Shown: in pieces, positions 4,128 to 22,083 of the stretch
Layout: each line of letters starts with the position of its first letter
Position numbering within the stretch: position 1 is the stretch's first letter
IMG/VR virus record: IMGVR_UViG_3300009593_000140
Span: 1-22,083 of that record
Strand: one strand, 5' to 3'
Source: a virus
Length of the DNA stretch: 22,083 nt
The notes under the pieces: model-generated
What the model was told of the DNA's origin: nothing
The model's input: the letters and a program-made list of their open reading frames with translations, nothing else
Databases searched by the model: none
Program-made: the position numbers and the translations under genes

Positions 4128-7100
4128 CTATGAAGTTGTTGTAAATGAATTAAAATATACAGTTGATGCTAATGTTACTCCTGTTTCATTCGTTCCACCT
4201 ACACCTGAAACAACTCTTATATAATATTGTGTAGATGCCGCTAATCCAGTAGTAGTTGTTGGAGTTAAAACAATTTTATTTCCAAATTCTCCTGATCTCT
4301 CAACTCTCATATCCGTAAAATGTCCAGAACCAAATCCAGATGCAGTAGACAATTCTATTTCATTACCTGAACCTATTGCGAATGTTGATAATAAGATCGC
4401 CTCATTAAAATGAATTACAATGGGATAATTTCTAGAAATTATTGAAGACTGATTAGGCATAGATCCAGACCCTCCTACTCCTAATTCAATAATCTGTCCA
4501 TCATAAGTCATTACTTCACATTGTATTGCTTTAAAATCATGATTCGATGCAGTATTAGCATAATATGTTGTATAAGTAGCAGTTGATGCAAGAGTTGTCC
4601 CACCCTTACTTTTTGCAGTATCAGTTACAGTTGCATAAATTTTTGAATTTTGTGTTAAATTTAAACTTGTATTTGCTAATATTGCAGGTCTTAACTCAAA
4701 AGAAGTATCATTATTCGAACCAGTAATTGAATCAAATGGAATTGCATTTTTAAAACTACTATCATATGAAAATATAATATTATAATCATGATTAGCAGGT
4801 ACAAGAGAACTTGCAGGATAATTTAAACTATCGACATTCATTGTTTGTGTAAATCCAACTTTAAAATTTGCAGTACAATTAATAGAATTTTGATTTGCAC
4901 TTAAAATTGATACTACATCTCCATCTGTATTTGCAAATTTTACATCAGAAACTACAGCCGTAGAGGCCATTTTAAATCCTGGTCCAGTTTGCTTGGTACT
5001 TTCATGCCCAACAAAATGTCCATTAGACTCTCTTCCTATAATTCTATCTGAAGAAGACCCTATAGTTGTACTGCCTGTTATAAAATCAGCATCAACTTTA
5101 AGATTTCTATAAGTAACAGTTTTTGGTGAAGAAGAAAGATCCACTGATATAACTTCTCCTTCTGGATCAGGTGTAATAGCAACATTATCGATTACAAAAC
5201 TATGAGTTGCATTAATTCTACAGGTTTCACCAGGAATTAATTTTGTAATAGTCCCATCTAATCCAGGAATTTCTGTATATCTCATGCTTGTTATTGCACT
5301 TACATAATTTGTAGCCGCAGGATTTGTACTACCATTGGGAGTCCATGCATCTGGAAGATAATCAAAAACTTTACCTTTACCTTTAGAAGTTAATCCTATA
5401 AATTCATCTCCCAATGTTACAGTTGCATCACTATTAGCAGGAAAAACACCATCGCCTAAGTCTCCAACATCTATAGGAGTGTTAGCAGGGTTTGTATTTG
5501 ATTTAATGCTTATTGTTCTAAGACCATTAATAATTTCTCCAGCAACAAAAGTATTAGTAGAATCTATTGTACTCGTTGAATTCAAAGTTAGAATTATAGA
5601 AGAAGTAACATTATCTTCCGCCATCTGATTATTTTTTGGAGAACCGTCTGAAACACCTTTTGAAACCTTTAATGTATAATTTGCACCTCCTGCTAAATTT
5701 GCTACAGGAGTAAAAGTAAATGTATCATTCTCTTCTTCGGTCTTTGAAACTACTGGTGAAGTAGAAGTCATTTGAACAACTGTATTAAAACTATCACAAG
5801 ACAATTGAACCGTTCCCACAGGAGTTGTATTGCTAGTAGCAGTGGTCACAGAAGCAATATTCATTTCTTCAGTAAATTGTATAATTATAGATTCAGTATC
5901 CAGATCAATATCAACGTCCTGATACGTACTAGGGGAACTTATTTCAGAAGCAGTTTTACTTTCTAAAACTTTTCCAGCAAATCCAGCAGTTCCCGCAGTT
6001 GATGAAATTGATATCTTTTTAATTTCGGGAGGATCTTCATCTCTTGAATAAATGGTTGATTGCCCTGTTTTAGGATCAATAATCTTTAATCCAACATCAA
6101 TCCCCTCTGTAGATTCATACTGATAAACAAGATTTGTTTTTCCTAAATCCTGAACATCATCTGTAACTCTAATTTTATAACTATGATTTCTTTTTATAGT
6201 TGAAGGAAGAAGTGCAAAAGACGAATTACCTTTACTTGGAGTTATTGAAACACATTGTTCAATATTTTCAAATCCATCATCAGACATTTGTACTGTACTT
6301 GAAGCAGAATCTTGTTCTCCAGCAAATACCGCCGATGATCCATCAGCGGAAATAATATGAGAACTATTAGAAACAGAAATCGTACTCGTATTCATTGACT
6401 GACTAAAATTTATAATAATAGCATTAAAAGCATCTGCAAAAGAACCAGTTGCCTTTGTTTGTATTTTTACAGGACCAGGAGCAGGACTTTGTACACCTAT
6501 AAATGATGATGCCGTTAATTCATAATGTAAAGTATTTGCCGTAGGTGCGGCTAATACTTTTGTCTCTAAATTATAAACACTATTTGTTGAACCCAATATC
6601 TTAATTTCATCCCCTTTAGATAAATTATGTGGATGATTTGTTTCTATAATAGCAGTTTTTCCTCGTCTTAAAATATTTGAAACTGTTAATTTTCTTGGAA
6701 ATGATTCCCCATCTTCAGGAAAGGTTCCTTCTACTTTTGGTGCAGAAGAATTAAAGGGATGTATATTATGTGTAGGATATGTGTTCGCCTTTATATGAAT
6801 TCTAAGAGGTAAATCACCTCCCTCTAAATCAATTATAGTGTTATTTGCAAATGAATCAGATGTAATTGCTCCAGCAGAAGTAGTTGCAACATATTTAAAT
6901 ACATTATCATCTTCATTAAATTTTACTAATTTTCCTTGAAGTGAAGGAGTAGTTACAGTATCACTTTGTTTAATTAAATTAAATGTGTTATTGGTCATCT
7001 CTGAAGGAGTATTGAAAACCATTTGTGGCACAGATACTATTTTTTTTCGTGATACGTATGTTGTACCACCCGTACCGTCTGATTCCTGTCCTCTCACATA

Positions 7101-8162
7101 TGTACATTTAACTTGATCCCCCTTCATTAAATTTCTATAATAATTTAAACGACCTGCACCACTTGTTGTTCCATCTACAGGAATAGAAAAAGTATCAGAG
7201 GTAAGTTCAGTTGCAACATATGATCCTACGGCAATTGCATTTCCACTAACCATATCGTAAACTTGTACTATATCATTATCTGCTAAACCATGACCAACAT
7301 TTGTAATAACTACAGGATTTGTAGCAGTATAAGCACAATTCATTTGATATGCATCTTCATTTAACTGATATGTAATTGTCGAACTGTCTATTTTTTTAAT
7401 TTTATAACTACCAACTTGTGTCCCAGAAACATGAACTAAATTTTCATCAACGACCAATGGTCCTTGATTTTCATCCGCTACTTTCAGCATACCTTCTGTT
7501 TGTATAGTAAACCCACTATAATATTCTCCTGTTGTCACAAATGATCTAGAGTTATCAGTAACAAAACCTTTTTCAATATCATATGAAATAGCATGACCTG
7601 TTACATCGAATACATTCTCATCATCCATTCTAAAAAAATAAGTAGTATTAGAAGAAAGATTTGCTACTGGAGTCATTGTAAAAGAAATATTATCTTCCGT
7701 TGTAGGAAGAGTAGTCATTTCTACAAATTCATCATTTGCCGCTTGAAGTGGATTCGCTCCTGTTTGATCATAAACTCCTGCAACACTCTGGGCACCACCA
7801 TCGACACTTAATTTCAATCCCTCTAATCCATTATCTACTGGATTTGCACCTGCTTCTGGAGTACGAACAACATGTGTCAATCCAAAGGTTCCCTTTTTAT
7901 TATATTTTTCATCTGGTACATTAACATCTTTAGTAAATGTTACTACTGTGGCAGGATTTACTTCATCTGTAAATGTTATAGTAACTTCACTCTCTGTATT
8001 TGCAAAAATAGATTCATTATTTAAATCGTCATTGGAATAATAACTTGTTCCTGAAAAACCATCAGACCCACTTGTTATCTCGGCCGTGGTAAATCCTCCA
8101 TAATGATATGTTTTTGACTCACCATCTTCTGTTGTATAAGTTCCTGTTCTGCTAATAGACAT
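4128..8162 (-). CDS. Giant Ig-like-repeat virion protein (SbsA/Big_5-type domains)
   Basis: This 1344-aa secreted-style beta protein has no signal peptide. Five divergent repeats share the pattern of a strand ending F-x-x-x-(M)-N, then T-P/R-P-x-x-x-L and a Y-x-(I/L/F)-x-V strand followed by a D/S-G-V turn. They start at about residues 59, 581, 758, 1099 and 1247 (for example INFSQSMNTSTI, IQFTEEMNIASV, VGFTQTMNVDSL). This is the layout of bacterial Ig-like SbsA domains. Two other modules at about 285-330 and 505-550 contain HGLADNDIVQV and HPHNLSKGDEIKI, like the FCCH-type modules of marine phage structural proteins. The ATG overlaps the previous stop by one base and has a GGGAG site. Its role is probably a baseplate decoration or adhesin binding the cell surface, which is inferred from fold and position. 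Confidence 0.85.
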   Translation of the reverse strand: MSISRTGTYTTEDGESKTYHYGGFTTAEITSGSDGFSGTSYYSNDDLNNESIFANTESEVTITFTDEVNPATVVTFTKDVNVPDEKYNKKGTFGLTHVVRTPEAGANPVDNGLEGLKLSVDGGAQSVAGVYDQTGANPLQAANDEFVEMTTLPTTEDNISFTMTPVANLSSNTTYFFRMDDENVFDVTGHAISYDIEKGFVTDNSRSFVTTGEYYSGFTIQTEGMLKVADENQGPLVVDENLVHVSGTQVGSYKIKKIDSSTITYQLNEDAYQMNCAYTATNPVVITNVGHGLADNDIVQVYDMVSGNAIAVGSYVATELTSDTFSIPVDGTTSGAGRLNYYRNLMKGDQVKCTYVRGQESDGTGGTTYVSRKKIVSVPQMVFNTPSEMTNNTFNLIKQSDTVTTPSLQGKLVKFNEDDNVFKYVATTSAGAITSDSFANNTIIDLEGGDLPLRIHIKANTYPTHNIHPFNSSAPKVEGTFPEDGESFPRKLTVSNILRRGKTAIIETNHPHNLSKGDEIKILGSTNSVYNLETKVLAAPTANTLHYELTASSFIGVQSPAPGPVKIQTKATGSFADAFNAIIINFSQSMNTSTISVSNSSHIISADGSSAVFAGEQDSASSTVQMSDDGFENIEQCVSITPSKGNSSFALLPSTIKRNHSYKIRVTDDVQDLGKTNLVYQYESTEGIDVGLKIIDPKTGQSTIYSRDEDPPEIKKISISSTAGTAGFAGKVLESKTASEISSPSTYQDVDIDLDTESIIIQFTEEMNIASVTTATSNTTPVGTVQLSCDSFNTVVQMTSTSPVVSKTEEENDTFTFTPVANLAGGANYTLKVSKGVSDGSPKNNQMAEDNVTSSIILTLNSTSTIDSTNTFVAGEIINGLRTISIKSNTNPANTPIDVGDLGDGVFPANSDATVTLGDEFIGLTSKGKGKVFDYLPDAWTPNGSTNPAATNYVSAITSMRYTEIPGLDGTITKLIPGETCRINATHSFVIDNVAITPDPEGEVISVDLSSSPKTVTYRNLKVDADFITGSTTIGSSSDRIIGRESNGHFVGHESTKQTGPGFKMASTAVVSDVKFANTDGDVVSILSANQNSINCTANFKVGFTQTMNVDSLNYPASSLVPANHDYNIIFSYDSSFKNAIPFDSITGSNNDTSFELRPAILANTSLNLTQNSKIYATVTDTAKSKGGTTLASTATYTTYYANTASNHDFKAIQCEVMTYDGQIIELGVGGSGSMPNQSSIISRNYPIVIHFNEAILLSTFAIGSGNEIELSTASGFGSGHFTDMRVERSGEFGNKIVLTPTTTTGLAASTQYYIRVVSGVGGTNETGVTLASTVYFNSFTTTS

Positions 8163-11100
8163 TATACTAGACTCCCACTTAAAACTCGTACAGGTTGAAC
8201 ATCAAATCCTATACTGGTTACCTTTTCTCTCCTTAAACTCTGAGATTCTTCATTTAATATAGTGCTTCTAACTAAAACTTTATATTTACTTGTTGATCTT
8301 GCTAATGGAAGTTTAGGTCTTAAATCTATATTAAAAAATTGTTGCACCCCTTCTCCTCCTCCAGATGCAGATGTTCCAAATTGAATATCAAATTGATAAT
8401 ATACATTATCCGCCCCCCATTCCATCCTACCACTATCTTGATTACGTTCATATGTTCCTTGAAACAAAACAATCGAATCATCAATAGTTTCAACATAATT
8501 TTCATTATTAGTAAGTAGAACACTTTGAGTTTGAATTCTGGGACTAAAATCTACTGATCTTTCTGCTTGTTCTTCAACAATTTTTATTTCCTCTTCAGAT
8601 AGTGTATGGGCATCATTTGTAAAAACAATTCTTATAGTACCGTCTTGTTCTATTTGTGCATCATCTATATTTTTCCATTCTCCATCAGAATTTTGTTGTA
8701 TGTCATAAACTTCTGGTTGAATTTTTTCAGCAATAGTATCACCAACATTAAAAAGATTTGCTAAGAATCCTGCTCCAAGAGTTTCTAATGCATTAAAGTT
8801 ACTTACAAACTTTTTATATTTTTCGGAATCAGCACCTTGTGCAAAAAAGACTAATCCACCACAATATTTTAAATTACTCAATTCACTTATTGGTACTGGT
8901 TCTGTTGGAGCATCTGGATCTTCTACTTTTTGTACTGTTGGTCTTAAAATTTTTCTTTTAACTTTCTTAGGTAGTCCAGTAAACGGATCATCAATCACAA
9001 CTTCTTTTTCAATTGTCTCTAAACTTATTTCACTTACAGTATTTTTTGCGGCCTTTAATTTCATATTTTGTAATTTAGTTTTGAAATTTTTAACGCCTTT
9101 TCCATTAAAAGATTTAGAATATATTCCCGCAGAATTTAATCCTTGAGAAAAGAAAGCAATTAAATTTTGAATTTGATCATTTAATTTTTTAATATTTTTT
9201 ATCTGATTCTCTAAAAATTTAATATATTCATCAATATCTTTTACTATTCCTTGAACTTGTTTTTTAAATTTCTTTACTTGTCCTATTGCCTCTTGTATAG
9301 TAGAACCATATATAGGAAACAAATCTGAAACCCTTACATATTTCCAATTAGGAGTATCGTTTTTATTTGTCGTAAATAATTCAAAAGGACGATTTGGCGG
9401 ACCTGGCTCACCACCATCTGTTGGTATTTTTGTATCCCAAGAAAGAAGTAGACCATCAGGAGGACTTATATTAGGAACAAGCCAGGGATCTTCTTCAAAA
9501 GACCCATCATAATTCTGAAAACCTATAGAAATTGTAAGTTCTCTCATTTCATATGGAGTATCAACAACTCCTCCCACATCCATTTCATCATCATAATTAA
9601 ACAAATCTGTTTCTTTAAGGTCTGTAGTTGAAATTTCAACTCCATCAATTTTAATTGAAGCAACACTATAATTAACACCTAATGAAGGCACAACATCTAA
9701 CAATTTACCATAATTGAATTGAAACTTGCTATCAGCAAATACTTCATCTTTATAAAGGTTATGTGCCTGTTCAGAAAGATCATATGGTTTTAAAAATTGA
9801 TGATCAATTATCATTCCCTTTTTTAAACTCCTTACAAATCTCATATATGAAGCAACAACTCTTTGACTATCTGCACTATCTAATTCTTTAACCATTCTCG
9901 CTTTATACACATTTATTTTTGGAGTTCCTTGTGTCTCCCATTGATTTTTCATACCGATTCTAATTCGTTGTCCTTCTCTATCATTAGGAATAATATCTGT
10001 TATAACATTAGAATCCGCTTTCATTGTTCCAAAGAATGATAGATTTCTTGATGCTTGAGGCTTCTCTTGTGTATCTGGTCTAAACATAGGATAAGATAAT
10101 TGATTTAACTCCCCATCTTCTCTAATTGCACATCTAAATATTGGAAGTGTTGCCGAATTATAAGACTTCAAATTTGTTTTAATTATTTCACCTCTAACAC
10201 CCTTAACAATAACTCTATTTGATATTACCATTCCATTTTTAATGACTATTGGCTTATGCTCAACAACTGTAGCAGTAAAATTTGATAGTCCCATCACACC
10301 ACCTTCTTGAACTATTCTATCTCCCTTTTTAAACATAGGTATTTTATGAGTTGCTCCTACAGTTGAATTTGTAGTATCATCACTATCTTTATATGTTCCA
10401 TCTGGAAGTTTTTTCTCCCCCGTGTATGGTTTAAAATCTCCTGTTTCTGAAAACCATTCTGCATAGGGCTTACCGCTAACAAGTTGTCTTGTAGAGTCTA
10501 CTGGTTTAGTTAAAGGTTCTCCCATTTCAATTGTTTTCGTTTCTTCATCATTCTTTCCATTATCCGGTGAAGCCAATCGTTTCAATAATTCATCACTAAG
10601 AACATCTCCAAAATAATCTGCAAAAGATTGTACAACCTGAATTACAGAATTTATAGTTGGTAACGCAAACATTATAATATGTGCTTGATAATGACCAGAC
10701 CCAGATGGTCTATTATTATCAGGAGACGAACTTTCTAAAGACCTTACAATTTTATCCACAAATTCAGTAGGAGGAAGTTCTTTAACTATTAATTCTTTCT
10801 GAGTGAAATCTATAGTTTTAAGAAGAGTGTCCCTTGCATCATCCATTAGACTTCCATCTCCTGAATTTTCAACATCTCCACCCTGCCAAGTGTCAGGATG
10901 AAAAAAATTACGAATACTAAGAAGTGTATTATAGATATCGTCTTTTGTCATATCTGTATTTGAAACATCTCCTAAATCTTGATCTGGAGTTAATAGTGCA
11001 GTACCATTTTTTGTTTTTATAAAGTCTCCATCAGCACCTATCGCCATTGTTTTAGGATCTAATCCTCTTGCGGCCGCCGCAAGACCAATAATTGCTTGAT

Positions 11101-11428
11101 CTAATTTCTCGGTATTTACACGTGGAGGATATTGTCCATGTTCCCAAGGCCAAACAGTAACGCTACCCATTCCTATATTTTGCAAATCTTCAAGAGCAAC
11201 TATTAAAGAATCAATAGTTCTAATCAAAGGACCAGTAAGAGGATTTTTCATCATCACTAAAAAGGTCTTTGTTATTTGAAAAAACTGTATTAATTTATCA
11301 GCAACTTGAGAAAAATTATTTCCAAAAGTGTTTACACCTGTTAAAAATGCATTTAGTGCGACTGCCCCATCACCAAATATTGCCTGAGTTTTTTGTTCTA
11401 AAATAAGTTCTGTGTCTTGATCAGCCAT
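8162..11428 (-). CDS. 1088-aa baseplate-operon structural protein
   Basis: I do not recognise a T4 counterpart. Residues 1-95 are mostly helical and hydrophobic. Residues 350-700 are mixed alpha/beta with many short strands. A clear coiled coil spans about 711-760 (KKFKKQVQ through FLENQIKNIKKLNDQIQ). A basic linker near 817-832 follows, then a beta-rich C-terminal region to 1088. There is no signal peptide or enzyme motif. Its place between the gp5-like hub and the Ig-repeat protein suggests a baseplate or tail-tip component. Its start codon overlaps the stop of the preceding 54-aa gene by one base (TAATG), and an AAAGAGAA stretch upstream may act as ribosome binding site. Two of its segments, residues 5-13 and 735-749, recur in that 54-aa protein. 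Confidence 0.8.
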   Translation of the reverse strand: MADQDTELILEQKTQAIFGDGAVALNAFLTGVNTFGNNFSQVADKLIQFFQITKTFLVMMKNPLTGPLIRTIDSLIVALEDLQNIGMGSVTVWPWEHGQYPPRVNTEKLDQAIIGLAAAARGLDPKTMAIGADGDFIKTKNGTALLTPDQDLGDVSNTDMTKDDIYNTLLSIRNFFHPDTWQGGDVENSGDGSLMDDARDTLLKTIDFTQKELIVKELPPTEFVDKIVRSLESSSPDNNRPSGSGHYQAHIIMFALPTINSVIQVVQSFADYFGDVLSDELLKRLASPDNGKNDEETKTIEMGEPLTKPVDSTRQLVSGKPYAEWFSETGDFKPYTGEKKLPDGTYKDSDDTTNSTVGATHKIPMFKKGDRIVQEGGVMGLSNFTATVVEHKPIVIKNGMVISNRVIVKGVRGEIIKTNLKSYNSATLPIFRCAIREDGELNQLSYPMFRPDTQEKPQASRNLSFFGTMKADSNVITDIIPNDREGQRIRIGMKNQWETQGTPKINVYKARMVKELDSADSQRVVASYMRFVRSLKKGMIIDHQFLKPYDLSEQAHNLYKDEVFADSKFQFNYGKLLDVVPSLGVNYSVASIKIDGVEISTTDLKETDLFNYDDEMDVGGVVDTPYEMRELTISIGFQNYDGSFEEDPWLVPNISPPDGLLLSWDTKIPTDGGEPGPPNRPFELFTTNKNDTPNWKYVRVSDLFPIYGSTIQEAIGQVKKFKKQVQGIVKDIDEYIKFLENQIKNIKKLNDQIQNLIAFFSQGLNSAGIYSKSFNGKGVKNFKTKLQNMKLKAAKNTVSEISLETIEKEVVIDDPFTGLPKKVKRKILRPTVQKVEDPDAPTEPVPISELSNLKYCGGLVFFAQGADSEKYKKFVSNFNALETLGAGFLANLFNVGDTIAEKIQPEVYDIQQNSDGEWKNIDDAQIEQDGTIRIVFTNDAHTLSEEEIKIVEEQAERSVDFSPRIQTQSVLLTNNENYVETIDDSIVLFQGTYERNQDSGRMEWGADNVYYQFDIQFGTSASGGGEGVQQFFNIDLRPKLPLARSTSKYKVLVRSTILNEESQSLRREKVTSIGFDVQPVRVLSGSLV
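11066..11084. repeat. GC-rich perfect hairpin inside the 1088-aa gene
   Basis: An 8-base stem (TCTTGCGG against CCGCAAGA) encloses a 3-base CCG loop. It encodes Leu-Ala-Ala-Ala-Ala-Arg on the minus strand and is among the most GC-rich spots of the window. It may simply follow from the Ala codon choice; a function in the mRNA is not shown. Confidence 0.6.
11390..11416. repeat. Direct repeat copy A (start of 1088-aa gene)
   Basis: This 27-base segment encodes the DTELILEQK peptide on the minus strand. It matches 11554-11580 at 24 of 27 bases, including an uninterrupted 15-base run in the codons for ELILE. The copies are 164 bases apart and in the same orientation. Confidence 0.8.
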
Positions 11429-11592
11429 TATTGTTGATTCTCTTTCATAAGTTTTTTTGCATTTTCTATTTCATTTTCCAAAAATTTTATGTAAGTAGTA
11501 TTAAATTCTGCAACTTGATTTAATACATTTACCATATTACCATTAACTATTGGTTTTTCTTCTAAAATAAGTTCTTCGTCTTTTTCTATCAT
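11428..11592 (-). CDS. 54-aa mini-gene related to two segments of the 1088-aa protein
   Basis: This is a short gene linked to both neighbours: its ATG overlaps the gp5-like stop by four bases (ATGA) and its TAA overlaps the next ATG by one base. The product begins MIEKDEELILEEK and ends in a charged helix (TYIKFLENEIENAKKLMKEN). Residues 5-13 match residues 5-13 of the 1088-aa protein in 7 of 9 positions, and residues 34-48 match its coiled-coil residues 735-749 in 12 of 15 positions. The tight coupling and the retained protein similarity argue that it is a real gene. A role as partner, chaperone or assembly regulator of the 1088-aa protein is inferred. No family is recognised. Confidence 0.75.
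   Translation of the reverse strand: MIEKDEELILEEKPIVNGNMVNVLNQVAEFNTTYIKFLENEIENAKKLMKENQQ
11554..11580. repeat. Direct repeat copy B (start of 54-aa gene)
   Basis: This is the partner of the segment at 11390-11416 and encodes DEELILEEK on the minus strand. The three mismatches change two residues. This suggests a recent duplication or gene conversion of the 5' end of the 1088-aa gene, or strong constraint on the peptide. Confidence 0.8.
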
Positions 11593-15323: not shown

Positions 15324-15898
15324 GACTGGTAAACACCCCGTAATTCATTTAAACATTGTTTAGCATAAGTATTTTCTACTAGAATAATGTTTTTCTTTTT
15401 ATTATTTTCTTTTATCACATGATCATAATTCTTTATTGTTCTTCTATTACCATCCGCCAAAGTATCATAAGTTTCTTTATCTACAATTGCTACCTTTTCT
15501 AACACTCTAGCATTATCTGCACTTTTAGGAACGGCATGTCTCAATATTTGTTCATAATGATGTACTCCTGCTTTTGCATTTTCTACTGTTCCATATGCAT
15601 CTTCAATATAAAATTGTAACTGTTCTCCAAATAGGGGCCAATCATATATTGGATCTTGAATTTCATTTGCTAAAAGTATTAACCAAACAAAATCAGGAGA
15701 ACCATAATATTTTGTCGATACTGTATCTGGTCTTTCAAAATCTTCTATACGATAAGGATAATAAGATGCAACATGTTTAAATATGCCTTTATTCATATTT
15801 ACTCTAGACATTATATTTGTTGCAAGAGTTCCACGAATAGGTTTAATTTTATCTATGTTATAATAATTTGATCTATAATTTCTAAAAAAATCTGACAT
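15320..15898 (-). CDS. 53: Baseplate wedge subunit gp53
   Basis: At 192 aa it is almost the length of T4 gp53 (196 aa). In T4 it clamps adjacent gp6-gp25 units around the hub. The family signature is clear at about 60-90: KYYGSPDFVWLILLANEIQD followed by PIYDWPL, equivalent to YGNPQLYWVLLMCNDNYDPYYGW in T4. The N-terminus (FFRNYRSNYYNID) precedes a basic segment, and the C-terminal third is a lysine-rich helix region. The ATG at 15898 has a good AGAGAGG site and overlaps the previous stop by one base; its own stop region overlaps the gp27-like ATG by four bases. Confident. Confidence 0.93.
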   Translation of the reverse strand: MSDFFRNYRSNYYNIDKIKPIRGTLATNIMSRVNMNKGIFKHVASYYPYRIEDFERPDTVSTKYYGSPDFVWLILLANEIQDPIYDWPLFGEQLQFYIEDAYGTVENAKAGVHHYEQILRHAVPKSADNARVLEKVAIVDKETYDTLADGNRRTIKNYDHVIKENNKKKNIILVENTYAKQCLNELRGVYQS

Positions 15899-17043
15899 TA
15901 AAAATTCCTCTCTGCATGTGATCTATCCAGACCAAAATTTTCTTTAAAACTCAACTGCATTTGTATTTGTGTAGGTAGTCCTGTGTCATCAAAAAAAGTA
16001 GGTGCATATTTTACTTTTATTGATGTTAAAAAAGAACTTCCTATTTGATGTATTTTTTTATTCTGCTTACCCTTACTATAAAATCGAATCTTATATGTAT
16101 TAGGAAACTTAAAAAAAGCACTATTCATTCCATGATTAGATACCAGTTTTATTTGTTTTTTGGGACCTACAGTAAGAGAAGGATCTAGTTCCGGTCCTGA
16201 CATCTGCATTGCTTCTTCTTCAGATACATCATATTGTTCTGCAACTATAGGGCCAAGTTCAACTTTGGGTAAACTTGGTAACGAACCATCTTTTAAATTT
16301 ACTATAATACTCATTACTCTTTTAGATTCGTCACTATCTTTAGGATTAAATTCAAAAGCAAAATTATGAGTTCTTAACTTCTTTACTCCTGCAAATATAA
16401 GACTTGTATATGGATTTCTTTGGGCTCTCATAGACATTGCCGCCATTTGTTCACCCTTAGCATTTGAACCACCAAGTTTAGCCAAATTCCCAAAAGCAGA
16501 AGACACATTAAATTTTATTCTATTAGCAAAATCATCCCGAAGCCCTTCACTATCAACATATGGCATCGCCATTTGTTTTACATCTTTACCTACATTTTTA
16601 TAAAAATTCATTGTATTTTCTAAAAAACCAGAGTCCGTACCTGCTTGAAACTTTCCAAAATTTTCTTGTATAGTATCTGTTATTTTATTAACATTTTGAG
16701 ATAACATTTCTCCAAAAACACCCATATTAACTTCGTTATAATCTGAACTATATTGTGTCTTCAATGAACCAGTAGGTAAATGTAAAAGAAATGCTCTACC
16801 ATTCGTATAAAAATTACTTTGATTATCATCTTCTATCAATTTTTGAAATTGATGCTGACCATTAAATCCATCTTTTGATTTTTGTTCTTCAACCCACACT
16901 CGTTCAGTAATTAACATGAAATGTTGTAATCCTTGAGTTACTCCAATTCCTTCAGGATACTCATATCTAGCCAGACCACCCAATTCTTTGCTTAAATTAC
17001 TTGCTATAGTTGGATCTTTTAAACTTTCTCTAACAATGCTCAT
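15898..17043 (-). CDS. 48: Baseplate tail-tube cap/initiator, gp48-like (copy B)
   Basis: This 381-aa protein is close to T4 gp48 (364 aa), which with gp54 forms the platform on the hub from which the tail tube polymerises. The diagnostic part starts near residue 211: NPYTSLIFAGVKKLRTHNFA then FEFNPKDSDESKRVMSIIVN, matching the NRTKVFTWDLTPRSTEDLMAII block of T4 gp48. The C-terminus (SFLTSIKVKYAPT, GLPTQIQMQLSFKENFGLDR) matches the T4 gp48 end, including the aliphatic strand and E-x-x-x-L-x-R turn. The N-terminal 150 residues are more divergent. It overlaps the neighbouring paralogue by four bases (ATGA), so translation is coupled. gp54 function is the main alternative. Confidence 0.75.
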   Translation of the reverse strand: MSIVRESLKDPTIASNLSKELGGLARYEYPEGIGVTQGLQHFMLITERVWVEEQKSKDGFNGQHQFQKLIEDDNQSNFYTNGRAFLLHLPTGSLKTQYSSDYNEVNMGVFGEMLSQNVNKITDTIQENFGKFQAGTDSGFLENTMNFYKNVGKDVKQMAMPYVDSEGLRDDFANRIKFNVSSAFGNLAKLGGSNAKGEQMAAMSMRAQRNPYTSLIFAGVKKLRTHNFAFEFNPKDSDESKRVMSIIVNLKDGSLPSLPKVELGPIVAEQYDVSEEEAMQMSGPELDPSLTVGPKKQIKLVSNHGMNSAFFKFPNTYKIRFYSKGKQNKKIHQIGSSFLTSIKVKYAPTFFDDTGLPTQIQMQLSFKENFGLDRSHAERNF

Positions 17044-17930
17044 GAATTATTCCAATCTACATCGGAATTTATTTGATAATCTTCTCGCAATCTTTCCCTC
17101 GTATAAATTTTATTTTCTTTAATAGATAAACTTAAAGTAGCAGATAAAGGAGCATTATCCTTAAAAAATGTAGGAGTTGGTGTTCCTTCTGAATATTCAA
17201 CTGTAAAGTCAGTTATAGATGATTTTCTTATCTTTATTACTCCCGTATGGTGTTTTGTATAATCTTTTCCTGTAGTACCATAAAATTCCATATCCAATAA
17301 ATCAGGAGTTTCTGCAATTCCTGTCAATTGAGAAGTATCATCGATAGTATCTTCAATCATTTTTGGTAACATTGCTTTTTTAATTTCTGTAATAATATCT
17401 GTCATTACATTACTCTCTGCTCTAGATTTAGGCACAAGTTTAAAATTAAAATTAAATTCTCTAAATCCTACACTATTAAACACATTTGTTATAAATGGAT
17501 TTTGAATCGTATTCGTACCTTTTGCAACTCCTGCTTTTAAACCAGGTGTGCCACTTAATGCTACATCTGCGGCTACCCTAGCAAATGTTTGTGGATTAAA
17601 TGATTTTACACCTGTTTTTGCAATATTCGTTAATCTATCTAAACTTGCATTTCCTATAGTGGATCCTAGTCCAACCGCTCCCATCACATCAAATTCTGCA
17701 TTATCATATTTAACATTAACGGCATCATTTATCTCTGGGTAAGGCAATGCAATTACTGTTTTTATTTTACCAGTAGCCTGGTCTCTTCCTCTATTGAAAA
17801 ATTTCAATAAAACAAATTTTCTTGCTTCAGGCGCATCTCCTGCAGAACTTCCTATATTATCAGGAAATCTCATAATTTTACTTGTCTCTATGGCGGCAGT
17901 TACTAAGCCTTTTAATCTATCATCTGACAT
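17040..17930 (-). CDS. Baseplate tail-tube cap/initiator, gp48-like (copy A)
   Basis: This 296-aa protein is the first gene of the leftward operon. Its middle has NPFITNVFNSVGFREFNFNF then KLVPKSRAESNVMTDIITEI and a KAMLPKM stretch, the same block as in the next gene and in T4 gp48. The end has the matching strands IRKSSITDFTVEYSEG and ATLSLSIKENKIYTRERL. It is therefore a paralogue of the 381-aa protein. One of the pair may replace T4 gp54 in layering the tube start. The start has an excellent AAGGAG site at 17935-17940, five bases before the ATG, and a CTAAATA late-promoter-like element at 17952-17958, which suggests a short leader mRNA of about 15 bases. Confidence 0.75.
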   Translation of the reverse strand: MSDDRLKGLVTAAIETSKIMRFPDNIGSSAGDAPEARKFVLLKFFNRGRDQATGKIKTVIALPYPEINDAVNVKYDNAEFDVMGAVGLGSTIGNASLDRLTNIAKTGVKSFNPQTFARVAADVALSGTPGLKAGVAKGTNTIQNPFITNVFNSVGFREFNFNFKLVPKSRAESNVMTDIITEIKKAMLPKMIEDTIDDTSQLTGIAETPDLLDMEFYGTTGKDYTKHHTGVIKIRKSSITDFTVEYSEGTPTPTFFKDNAPLSATLSLSIKENKIYTRERLREDYQINSDVDWNNS

Positions 17931-19590: not shown

Positions 19591-19620
19591 ATAAAACTTT
19601 TATATTATTAGGAGAATATA

Positions 19621-20346
19621 ATGACTTTACCTAAAATTGATGCACCCACCTTTGTAATGGATTTACATTCTATTGGAAAATCCGTACCCTATCGACCTTT
19701 TTTAGTTAAAGAAGAAAAAGTTCTATTAATGGCAATGGAGGGGGGAGATCAACGAGGAATATTAAATGCGACTAAACAAATAATTAGTAATTGTATTTTA
19801 GATGATAAAATTGATATTGATAAATTACCATTATTTGATTTACAATTAGCATTACTAAGAATAAGATCAAAATCTGTTGGTGAAGAAGCAATTATAACTC
19901 TTCTTCATCCGAATGGAAAGAATTCAAAAGATGAAGAATGTGATGGAAGAACACAGGGTAAAATTCATATTAATGAATTAAAAATAGAAATAAATGAAAA
20001 TCACAATAAAAATATTAGAGTGAATGATACAATTACTGTTCAAATGAAATACCCTACAATATCTGCTTTTGAAAATTTAGAAGAGGGTTCAATAGATGAA
20101 ATGTATAATATGATAATAGATTGTATTGATAACATATATTCTGGTGATGATGTTTTTAGTGCAAGTGAATATAGTAGAGAAGATTTGAATAATTTTGTTG
20201 GTAGTCTATCAACTACTCAATTTGGACAACTTAAAGAATTTTTTGATACAATGCCATCATTAAAACATGATGTATCATTTACTTGCAAAAAATGTGGATG
20301 TGAAGAAACACAGACTTTACAAGGAATTGGAGATTTTTTTTTATAG
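19621..20346 (+). CDS. 26: Baseplate hub / tail assembly chaperone, gp26-like
   Basis: This 241-aa protein has the family's N-terminal pattern: LPKIDAPTFVMDLHSIGKSV then YRPFLVKEEKVLLMAMEGGD, and further LPLFDLQLALLRIRSKSVGE. T4 gp26 (208 aa) is needed for hub assembly. Near the C-terminus lies a CKKCGC cluster (Cys222, 225, 227), half of a possible zinc ribbon. The start has a GGAG site seven bases upstream and follows a 30-base gap, the largest on this strand. The reading frame ends in D-F-F-L-stop over nine T residues; this T-TTT-TTA run, followed immediately by TAG, is a strong -1 slippery site that would extend the protein by 65 residues. Position before the tape measure agrees with tail assembly chaperone genes in other tailed phages. 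Confidence 0.85.
   Translation: MTLPKIDAPTFVMDLHSIGKSVPYRPFLVKEEKVLLMAMEGGDQRGILNATKQIISNCILDDKIDIDKLPLFDLQLALLRIRSKSVGEEAIITLLHPNGKNSKDEECDGRTQGKIHINELKIEINENHNKNIRVNDTITVQMKYPTISAFENLEEGSIDEMYNMIIDCIDNIYSGDDVFSASEYSREDLNNFVGSLSTTQFGQLKEFFDTMPSLKHDVSFTCKKCGCEETQTLQGIGDFFL
20337..20343 (+). promoter_or_regulatory. -1 ribosomal frameshift site (T TTT TTA)
   Basis: The heptamer T-TTT-TTA, the same as the HIV-1 gag-pol slippery site, lies in the correct phase for a -1 slip, directly before the zero-frame TAG. AAGGA at 20321-20325 is eleven bases upstream, the usual distance for a stimulatory Shine-Dalgarno-like element in bacteria; GGAG also lies at 20329-20332. Only a weak downstream pairing is seen (TTTGT with ACAAA). 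Confidence 0.75.
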
Positions 20347-20540
20347 TTTGTTGTCATAATAATTTACAAAATTACTATACTTTAACATTTCAATTGATGC
20401 AACATCATAAATATAATTTAACAGAGATTGAAAATATGATGCCTTTTGAAAGAGACCTTTATGTTGAAATGTTAATTAAACATTTAGAAGAAGAAAAAAA
20501 GAAAACTGAAGACCAAGAAAGAAAGTTAAGAAAGCACTAA
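20343..20540 (+). CDS. Frameshift extension of the gp26-like chaperone (G/GT-type second product)
   Basis: After a -1 slip the frame is open for 65 codons to the TAA at 20538, giving a 306-aa fusion. The segment begins IVCCHNN and continues YYTLTFQLMQHHKYNLTEIE, then MMPFERDLYVEMLIKHLEEE and a lysine/glutamate-rich tail. The only upstream ATG (20397, giving 47 aa) has no Shine-Dalgarno sequence and falls in the middle of what looks like one helical domain, so independent initiation is unlikely. In lambda-like and many other tailed phages the second chaperone gene is made exactly this way and recruits the tail tube to the tape measure. The stop overlaps the tape measure ATG by one base. The fusion is inferred, not demonstrated. 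Confidence 0.7.
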   Translation: MVCCHNNLQNYYTLTFQLMQHHKYNLTEIENMMPFERDLYVEMLIKHLEEEKKKTEDQERKLRKH

Positions 20541-22083
20541 TGGCCAGAAAACCTCACAACTATGTGCATTTTCAAAATCTAGTAGAAGAATTGAAATCTC
20601 ATAATGAATTAAATAATGAGATGATTGCCGAAAAGTTAGATCAAAATAATGCGATTTTAACAAAGATGCTTAATTTTGATGTAACAAAAATTAAAAATGA
20701 TAAAATTAAAGATAAAGAAGATAGACTTGAAGATAAGCCAAAAAAATGGAAGGGTCTTGATTCTAAATCTAGTATGAAATTACCAAGATTCTCAGGAAAA
20801 GGTTTCATGGGAATGTTGGGAGATTTTTTATCTACTGCACTTTTAGGAATTCCAGGTGGATTGAGAAAATTTTTACCAGCAAAACTTGGTATGGGTTTAA
20901 TGGGTACTTTAGTAAAGGGGATGGCTCTATTGGTCGCAGGACCAAATCTGCTTACCGCATTAGAGGCGGCATTTAAATCAGAAAATTTTTCAGGGGGATT
21001 AACCGCATTTGTTGATTCTTATTTTGCATCAGATAAAGAAGGATATAAAGGAGTATTTGAAGCCGCTTATGGTGGATCCTATAAAGGAGCATTGCTTGGA
21101 ATGATTGCAGGACCAAAAGGTGCGATAATTGGTGGTTTAATTGGAGGAGCAATATCGGGCCTAAATTATATTTTTACTGATGGTGGTAAAATGGATTTTG
21201 AATCACTAAAAACAAAAATGAGGGCACATTTAAAAGATAATCTTAAATTCTATGCCGCCGCTGGTATAGGATTAAAGATGGCTGGTTTGGGTTTCAAAGC
21301 AGGTGGAATTCCAGGAATGATAGCAGGTGGAATACTTGGTGCTGGTATTGGTTTACTTAGTGGCGATATTATATCCAAAGCATTAGAGGCGCAAGATAAA
21401 GACCCAAAGTTGTCTTTTGGTCAGGCATTATCCAAGGCATTTAAACAACATTTTATAGATATAGCAAATGAAGGCGATGGACCGTGGGCGGCAGGAGGAG
21501 CAGTTTTAGGTGCTATAATGGGAGGAAGTTTTGGACCTCCTGGAATTATAGCAGGTATGTTATTAGGTGCCGCCCTAGGACTTTTAACTGGTCCTGTTCT
21601 CGGAGAAGCATTCAAAATTCAAGAAGGTACTGGAGGCAAACTTTCAGATGCTTTCAAAGAGGCATTATGGAAGAAAGTATCAGAAGGAAGACTGGCTGGA
21701 TATCTTAAATCCGCCGCTTTTGGTGCCGCTTTATTTGGAACTGGTGCTTTATTAGGGTTAGGTCCAGTTGGATTTATGGCAGGTGCTATTATAGGAGCAG
21801 TTGTCGGAATTCTCGCACAATGGCTTACCAATATTGCAATTGATATTCTCGGTCCTAAATTAGCAAAATTGTTTGGACTTGAAAAAATTATTCCTCAAGA
21901 AGTGCATAATATGAAAAAAAATGCAGAACTGTCTCTAGCAAATGAAAAGTTCAACGATCAACTCTCAAACATGTCAGCGGCCGCATCCACAATTGTTACC
22001 TCAAAAAAACACACAAAGATGGGCAAAAGTGCGAGTGAATTAATTAAATTGTACAGAAACTTGCTTACTGAAAAAGCAAATAT
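20540..22083 (+). CDS. 29: Tape measure protein (gp29-like), N-terminal part
   Basis: 514 codons are open to the right edge, so the C-terminus is missing. Residues 1-75 form charged helices (HFQNLVEELKSHNELNNEMI, then KIKNDKIKDKEDRLEDKPKK). Residues 90-145 are hydrophobic. From about 176 to 440 there are four tandem units of roughly 65-76 residues, each with a Gly/Ala-rich hydrophobic hairpin built around a Gly-Pro turn (Gly194, Gly259, Gly335, Gly411) followed by a charged amphipathic stretch. After 450 the sequence becomes helical and polar again. Position directly after the tail assembly chaperone and the extended helical/hydrophobic composition identify a tape measure; T4 gp29 fills this role. 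The tape sets tail length and may leave with the DNA to form a membrane channel. The start overlaps the previous stop (TAATG). Confidence 0.82.
   Translation, partial: MARKPHNYVHFQNLVEELKSHNELNNEMIAEKLDQNNAILTKMLNFDVTKIKNDKIKDKEDRLEDKPKKWKGLDSKSSMKLPRFSGKGFMGMLGDFLSTALLGIPGGLRKFLPAKLGMGLMGTLVKGMALLVAGPNLLTALEAAFKSENFSGGLTAFVDSYFASDKEGYKGVFEAAYGGSYKGALLGMIAGPKGAIIGGLIGGAISGLNYIFTDGGKMDFESLKTKMRAHLKDNLKFYAAAGIGLKMAGLGFKAGGIPGMIAGGILGAGIGLLSGDIISKALEAQDKDPKLSFGQALSKAFKQHFIDIANEGDGPWAAGGAVLGAIMGGSFGPPGIIAGMLLGAALGLLTGPVLGEAFKIQEGTGGKLSDAFKEALWKKVSEGRLAGYLKSAAFGAALFGTGALLGLGPVGFMAGAIIGAVVGILAQWLTNIAIDILGPKLAKLFGLEKIIPQEVHNMKKNAELSLANEKFNDQLSNMSAAASTIVTSKKHTKMGKSASELIKLYRNLLTEKAN

Follow-up and report, generated by a model that had tools for sequence, protein, structure and literature searches.

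In the T4-like phage record analysed here (22,083 nucleotides, about 22 kb; the whole stretch is referred to below as the window), gp26 and gp51 in all likelihood constitute one gene pair of the G/GT type, in which a -1 frameshift would join the two and yield a short gp26 as well as a gp26-gp51 fusion. This reading, which is drawn from sequence comparison, rests on the homology of both parts, their relative phase, the conservation of the shift site, the selection acting on the -1 frame, the lack of a usable start codon for gp51, and the collinearity of the fusion with gp51 of the T4 clade. A preliminary description of the locus had proposed a programmed -1 frameshift and likened the arrangement to the G/GT pairs of lambda-like phages; the proposal is supported by the conserved gp51 domain found in the -1 frame of related phages and by the slippery heptamer that most of them share.

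Organization of the gp26-gp51 locus

The plus strand of the window carries genes for the head completion protein gp4, the DNA end protector gp2, the tail tube, gp26, gp51 and a tape-measure-like protein, and the baseplate genes are located on the minus strand. The features of the region are listed in Table 1. The profile matches of gp26 are strong (PF12322, E 2.2e-57; phrog_150, E 1.1e-61). The -1 frame, whose coding part spans 20343-20537 with the TAA at 20538-20540, matches phrog_634, the family of the baseplate hub assembly catalyst gp51, with an E of 7.3e-26, and also weakly matches the C-terminal end of phrog_150. The gp26 frame ends with the codons GAT TTT TTT TTA TAG, which create a run of nine Ts at 20334-20342, and the predicted long product is 306 aa. 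All the elements that had been reported for this site, i.e., T TTT TTA in phase, the adjoining stop codon, AAGGA 11 nt upstream and an open -1 frame of 65 codons, lie at their reported places. The tape-measure-like gene is identified by its position, its length and a weak glycine-zipper similarity, and in some relatives it is annotated as tape measure.

Table 1. Features of the gp26-gp51 region (positions in the window)
Feature	Position	Strand	Basis
Shine-Dalgarno sequence of gp26, AGGAGA	19610..19615	+	sequence
gp26, short tail assembly chaperone (TAC-N), 241 aa + TAG stop	19621..20346	+	PF12322, phrog_150
Shine-Dalgarno-like AAGGA, 11 nt 5' of T TTT TTA; possible stimulator, weak evidence	20321..20325	+	
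Slippery run TTTTTTTTTA with in-phase T TTT TTT (20334-20340) and T TTT TTA (20337-20343)	20334..20343	+	
gp26 stop TAG, abutting the heptamer	20344..20346	+	sequence
-1 frame extension, gp51 domain, 65 codons + TAA	20343..20540	+	phrog_634, selection, missing starts
TAATG, in which the gp51 stop and the ATG of the following gene overlap; translation of the two may be coupled	20538..20542	+	
Tape-measure-like gene (gp29 position), running off the end of the window	20540..22083	+	

Elsewhere in the window, on the minus strand, two very large ORFs (4128-8162 and 8162-11428; 1344 and 1088 aa) are situated amid the baseplate genes and have no PHROG match; a 54-aa ORF (11428-11592), also without a PHROG match, lies between the gp5-like gene and the 1088-aa ORF. 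Two neighbouring minus-strand genes (15898-17043 and 17040-17930) each show a match to phrog_230, the tail tube cap family.

Conservation of the shift site and of the frame relation

In the AT-rich window the heptamer alone is not rare (14 in-phase copies in 6644 codons) and thus the weight rests on comparative evidence. An open -1 frame is a rarer event: it extends over 191 nt past the gp26 stop in only 6 of 5000 dinucleotide shuffles. The comparative set was composed of IMG/VR loci and isolates dereplicated to 80 clusters. The gp51 domain is in the -1 frame at each of the 157 IMG/VR loci having both parts and in 79 of the 80 clusters, the frame of pf16 being assigned by hand and S-SCSM1 being the exception. 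Homopolymer errors are common, and the frame break could be imagined as a sequencing error in a metagenomic T run that interrupts one continuous gp26-gp51 gene; this explanation is refuted and retains practically no probability, since the relatives, among them cultured phages whose sequences come from several groups, share the same frame relation.

An in-phase T TTT TTN near the gp26 stop, scored within the last 20 codons of gp26 and counted at the first register where two fit (as in the window), is present in 76 of the 80 clusters. One codon separates the heptamer from the stop in 64 of these 76, and the same heptamer occurs 8 times in the 17,520 other codons of gp26. The T that precedes the first Phe codon and the TTT of that codon are kept in 76/76 clusters (log10 P of about -30 if the clusters are treated as independent, which they are not). 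In nearly all relatives the heptamer reads T TTT TTC or T TTT TTT. The earlier choice of T TTT TTA as the slip site is right as to phase, but this heptamer is one of two possible registers in the window and the relatives mostly have TTC or TTT in its place. The AAGGA element to which significance had also been given is indeed present, but we rejected it as strong evidence because synonymous resampling yields almost as many such elements: they are found in 66 of 76 clusters vs 59.8 expected, i.e., barely above what the amino acid sequence dictates.

Runs of nine Ts can cause slippage of RNA polymerase. The run is of this length in the window and its two nearest clusters, and an extra U introduced into some of the mRNAs would open the gp51 frame with no ribosomal frameshifting. 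We consider such an origin of the fusion very unlikely: most clusters have runs of six (44 of 76) or seven (23 of 76) Ts and nevertheless keep the phase and the heptamer, which fits tandem slippage by the ribosome, and the folding of the RNA is raised just 3' of the site. Taking the first T of the heptamer as origin, the mean z relative to synonymous recodings is about -1.6 at offsets of 9-12 nt and decays to values between -0.1 and -0.6 at most offsets further 3'. The RNA structure 3' of the site is weak in the window itself (z of about 0.1), and a downstream hairpin common to the relatives was not found, the hairpins being lineage-specific.

The -1 frame upstream of the first methionine

From the shift site to the first conserved Met, dN/dS in the -1 frame is 0.12, while pN/pS in the other two frames is 1.05 and 1.35; by this measure, purifying selection on these codons is confined to the -1 frame. 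Residues kept in this interval are H, L, Y-Y, N and F, the last in 97 per cent. Judged from these comparisons, translation of the -1 frame very probably extends back to the shift site.

It is conceivable that gp51 is made as a free small protein, either from an internal ATG or by ribosomes that reinitiate once gp26 has terminated. The separate gp51 ORFs annotated in GenBank for cyanophages would fit this, as would the TAATG that marks the end of gp26 in the KVP40 group, Cygsa01 and two Ackermannviridae-classed vibriophages. The starts themselves argue otherwise. Upstream of the conserved Tyr, 34 of 75 clusters have no ATG, GTG or TTG, and a start preceded by a Shine-Dalgarno sequence occurs in 0 of 75; at the conserved Met, a Shine-Dalgarno sequence accompanies 0 of 48 ATGs. 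The ATG in the -1 frame of the window, at about 20397, is devoid of one, as had been noticed before. Together with the selection on codons that lie 5' of the first Met and with the fact that gp51 of the T4 clade is a single protein collinear with the fusion, this makes a free gp51 highly improbable. The preliminary description had named two findings in relatives that would speak against frameshifting: a -1 frame interrupted by a stop codon between 20343 and 20397, and an ATG with a good ribosome binding site for a free small protein. Neither was encountered, the first in the heptamer-bearing clusters other than S-SCSM1 and the second upstream of the conserved Tyr in 75 clusters, and the alignment that it called for reveals both the slippery site and the 20343-20397 codons to be conserved.

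Relatives that deviate from the rule

In S-SCSM1 (about 1960-2010 in L179), some 11 extra bases after the shift site create a stop in the -1 frame and place gp51 in the other frame; the insertion may be genuine or may reflect an error in the sequence. The heptamer is absent from four clusters: the Ackermannviridae-classed vibriophages 1.255.O, GR28A and Kuja, and Pseudomonas phage Cygsa01. Three of these, two of the vibriophages and Cygsa01 (L172, L173 and L176), are distant relatives with TAATG where gp26 ends, and their pairs may use reinitiation instead. The TAATG of the KVP40 group is likewise a possible reinitiation start. In Kuja (about 3220-3245 in L174), neither an in-phase T-run heptamer nor an ATG is seen near the junction; its CTT TTT C might allow single-codon slipping. 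A search of IMG/VR for further relatives of the Ackermannviridae-type gp26 returned none, and the ValKK3 query there yielded no more than two contigs, both of Vibrio phages and with identities of 100 and 87 per cent.

Relation to T4 and to other tail assembly chaperones

Both domains are homologous in sequence to the gp26/gp51 family of T4 (PF12322, phrog_150, phrog_634). T4 gp26 (208 aa) and T4 gp51 (249 aa) both match PF12322, and T4 gp51 matches phrog_150 over residues 3-248 in addition to phrog_634. A profile built from the in-silico fusion extends through the junction in its alignments with gp51 of Aeromonas phage 25, Acj133 and T4, whereas its alignment with T4 gp26 stops at the shift site. 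T4 gp26 is thus homologous to the short form and T4 gp51 to the whole fusion, so the T4-clade counterpart of the predicted frameshift product is gp51. Separate genes on opposite strands encode gp26 and gp51 in T4, Aeromonas phage 25 and Acj133, and no frameshift is involved, as had correctly been said of T4 at the outset; here, in contrast to two full-length genes, gp51 is a C-terminal domain only and is in the -1 frame. In 685 phage records gp26 occurs once per record; the window covers 22 kb of a larger genome, the rest of which might hold a second copy. We infer that the T4 state was derived by duplication.

The AlphaFold model of gp26 (pLDDT 91.6, pTM 0.84) has the HK97 tail assembly chaperone gp13 (2ob9) and 3fgx as joint closest folds in the PDB after re-alignment, with a Z of 7.8, a moderate value within the common range of the tool, and an rmsd of 4.1 over 84-86 residues of the N-terminal domain only. 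The match agrees with the gene position of gp26. Foldseek gave no PDB match with E below 1e-3 for gp26, the HK97 chaperone being at rank 4, and the gp26 profile found no relative among PDB sequences (best E 0.51).

Proposed mechanism

In the G/GT type, the long form amounts to a few per cent, the short form binds the tape measure protein, the extension binds the tail tube protein, and both forms are absent from the virion. The window shares with it two overlapping frames, of which the second has no start of its own and lies directly upstream of the tape-measure-like gene, and a slippery heptamer that is in phase, conserved and located close to where the first ORF ends. By analogy, most ribosomes would terminate at the TAG at 20344 and produce the short chaperone, while a minority would slip by -1 on the T run and produce the fusion; the slip would be a tandem one, with T TTT TTA or T TTT TTT as the heptamer on which the tRNAs of the P and A sites move back. 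As in lambda, the tape measure protein may be covered by many short and few long chaperones, with the gp51 domain recruiting the tail tube protein. T4 makes the same two proteins from paralogous genes, the short one from gp26 and the long one from gp51. We infer the ribosomal slippage, its low rate and the chaperone role. The likeness to the lambda gpG/gpGT system (Xu, Hendrix and Duda 2004) consists in a short chaperone and its -1 long form encoded before the tape measure gene; the shift site is a T run in place of that of lambda.

Known systems and annotation of T4-like phages

Tail assembly chaperones of T4-like phages were reportedly identified by Vladimirov, Gautam and Davidson in 2022 (Virology 566:9), in a work whose title stresses a mechanism other than frameshifting. 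Their genes are very probably the same as gp26 and gp51 here; the present finding is largely known in kind, and this group of phages has possibly been covered there already. PMC12846349 cites the 2022 work for poly-T -1 shift sites in the TAC-N genes of T4-like phages and PMC10885494 cites it for short and fused long genes in some of these phages, and a 2016 review speaks of G-T frameshifting as widely conserved 'except T4' (PMC5009743). A similar arrangement exists in other phage families, at the chaperone locus of the Vandenendeviridae/Andersonviridae (phage Adele): the last codons of the short gene contain a conserved GTTTTT motif, and every genome has an open -1 frame (PMC12846349).

Our comparison indicates that frameshifting is the rule in cyanophages, KVP40-like vibriophages and Aswh_1-type Aeromonas phages, as well as in T4-like phages of the Sinorhizobium, pf16 and DLP6 type, which makes the textbook phage T4, with its two paralogous genes, the exception. 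In the GenBank entries examined gp51 is annotated as a free small protein or is missed; the appropriate annotation of the long form is a gp26-gp51 fusion.

The next gene and its possible coupling to frameshifting

The start codon of the following gene, an ATG, was located in 62 clusters, and in 53 of them the distance between it and the gp51 stop is at most 8 nt. A Shine-Dalgarno sequence precedes 15 of these 53 ATGs vs 59 of 75 gp26 starts, a count that allows any of the first ATGs of gp26 and so favours gp26 somewhat. Since the ATG overlaps the stop of the frameshifted frame, usually with no Shine-Dalgarno sequence, synthesis of the tape measure protein might be coupled to frameshifting, so that mainly slipped ribosomes would reach its ATG and reinitiate there; we put this forward tentatively, as a possibility suggested by these counts but somewhat less likely than not. 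If it is true, a single slip rate would fix the ratio of short chaperone to long chaperone to tape measure protein.
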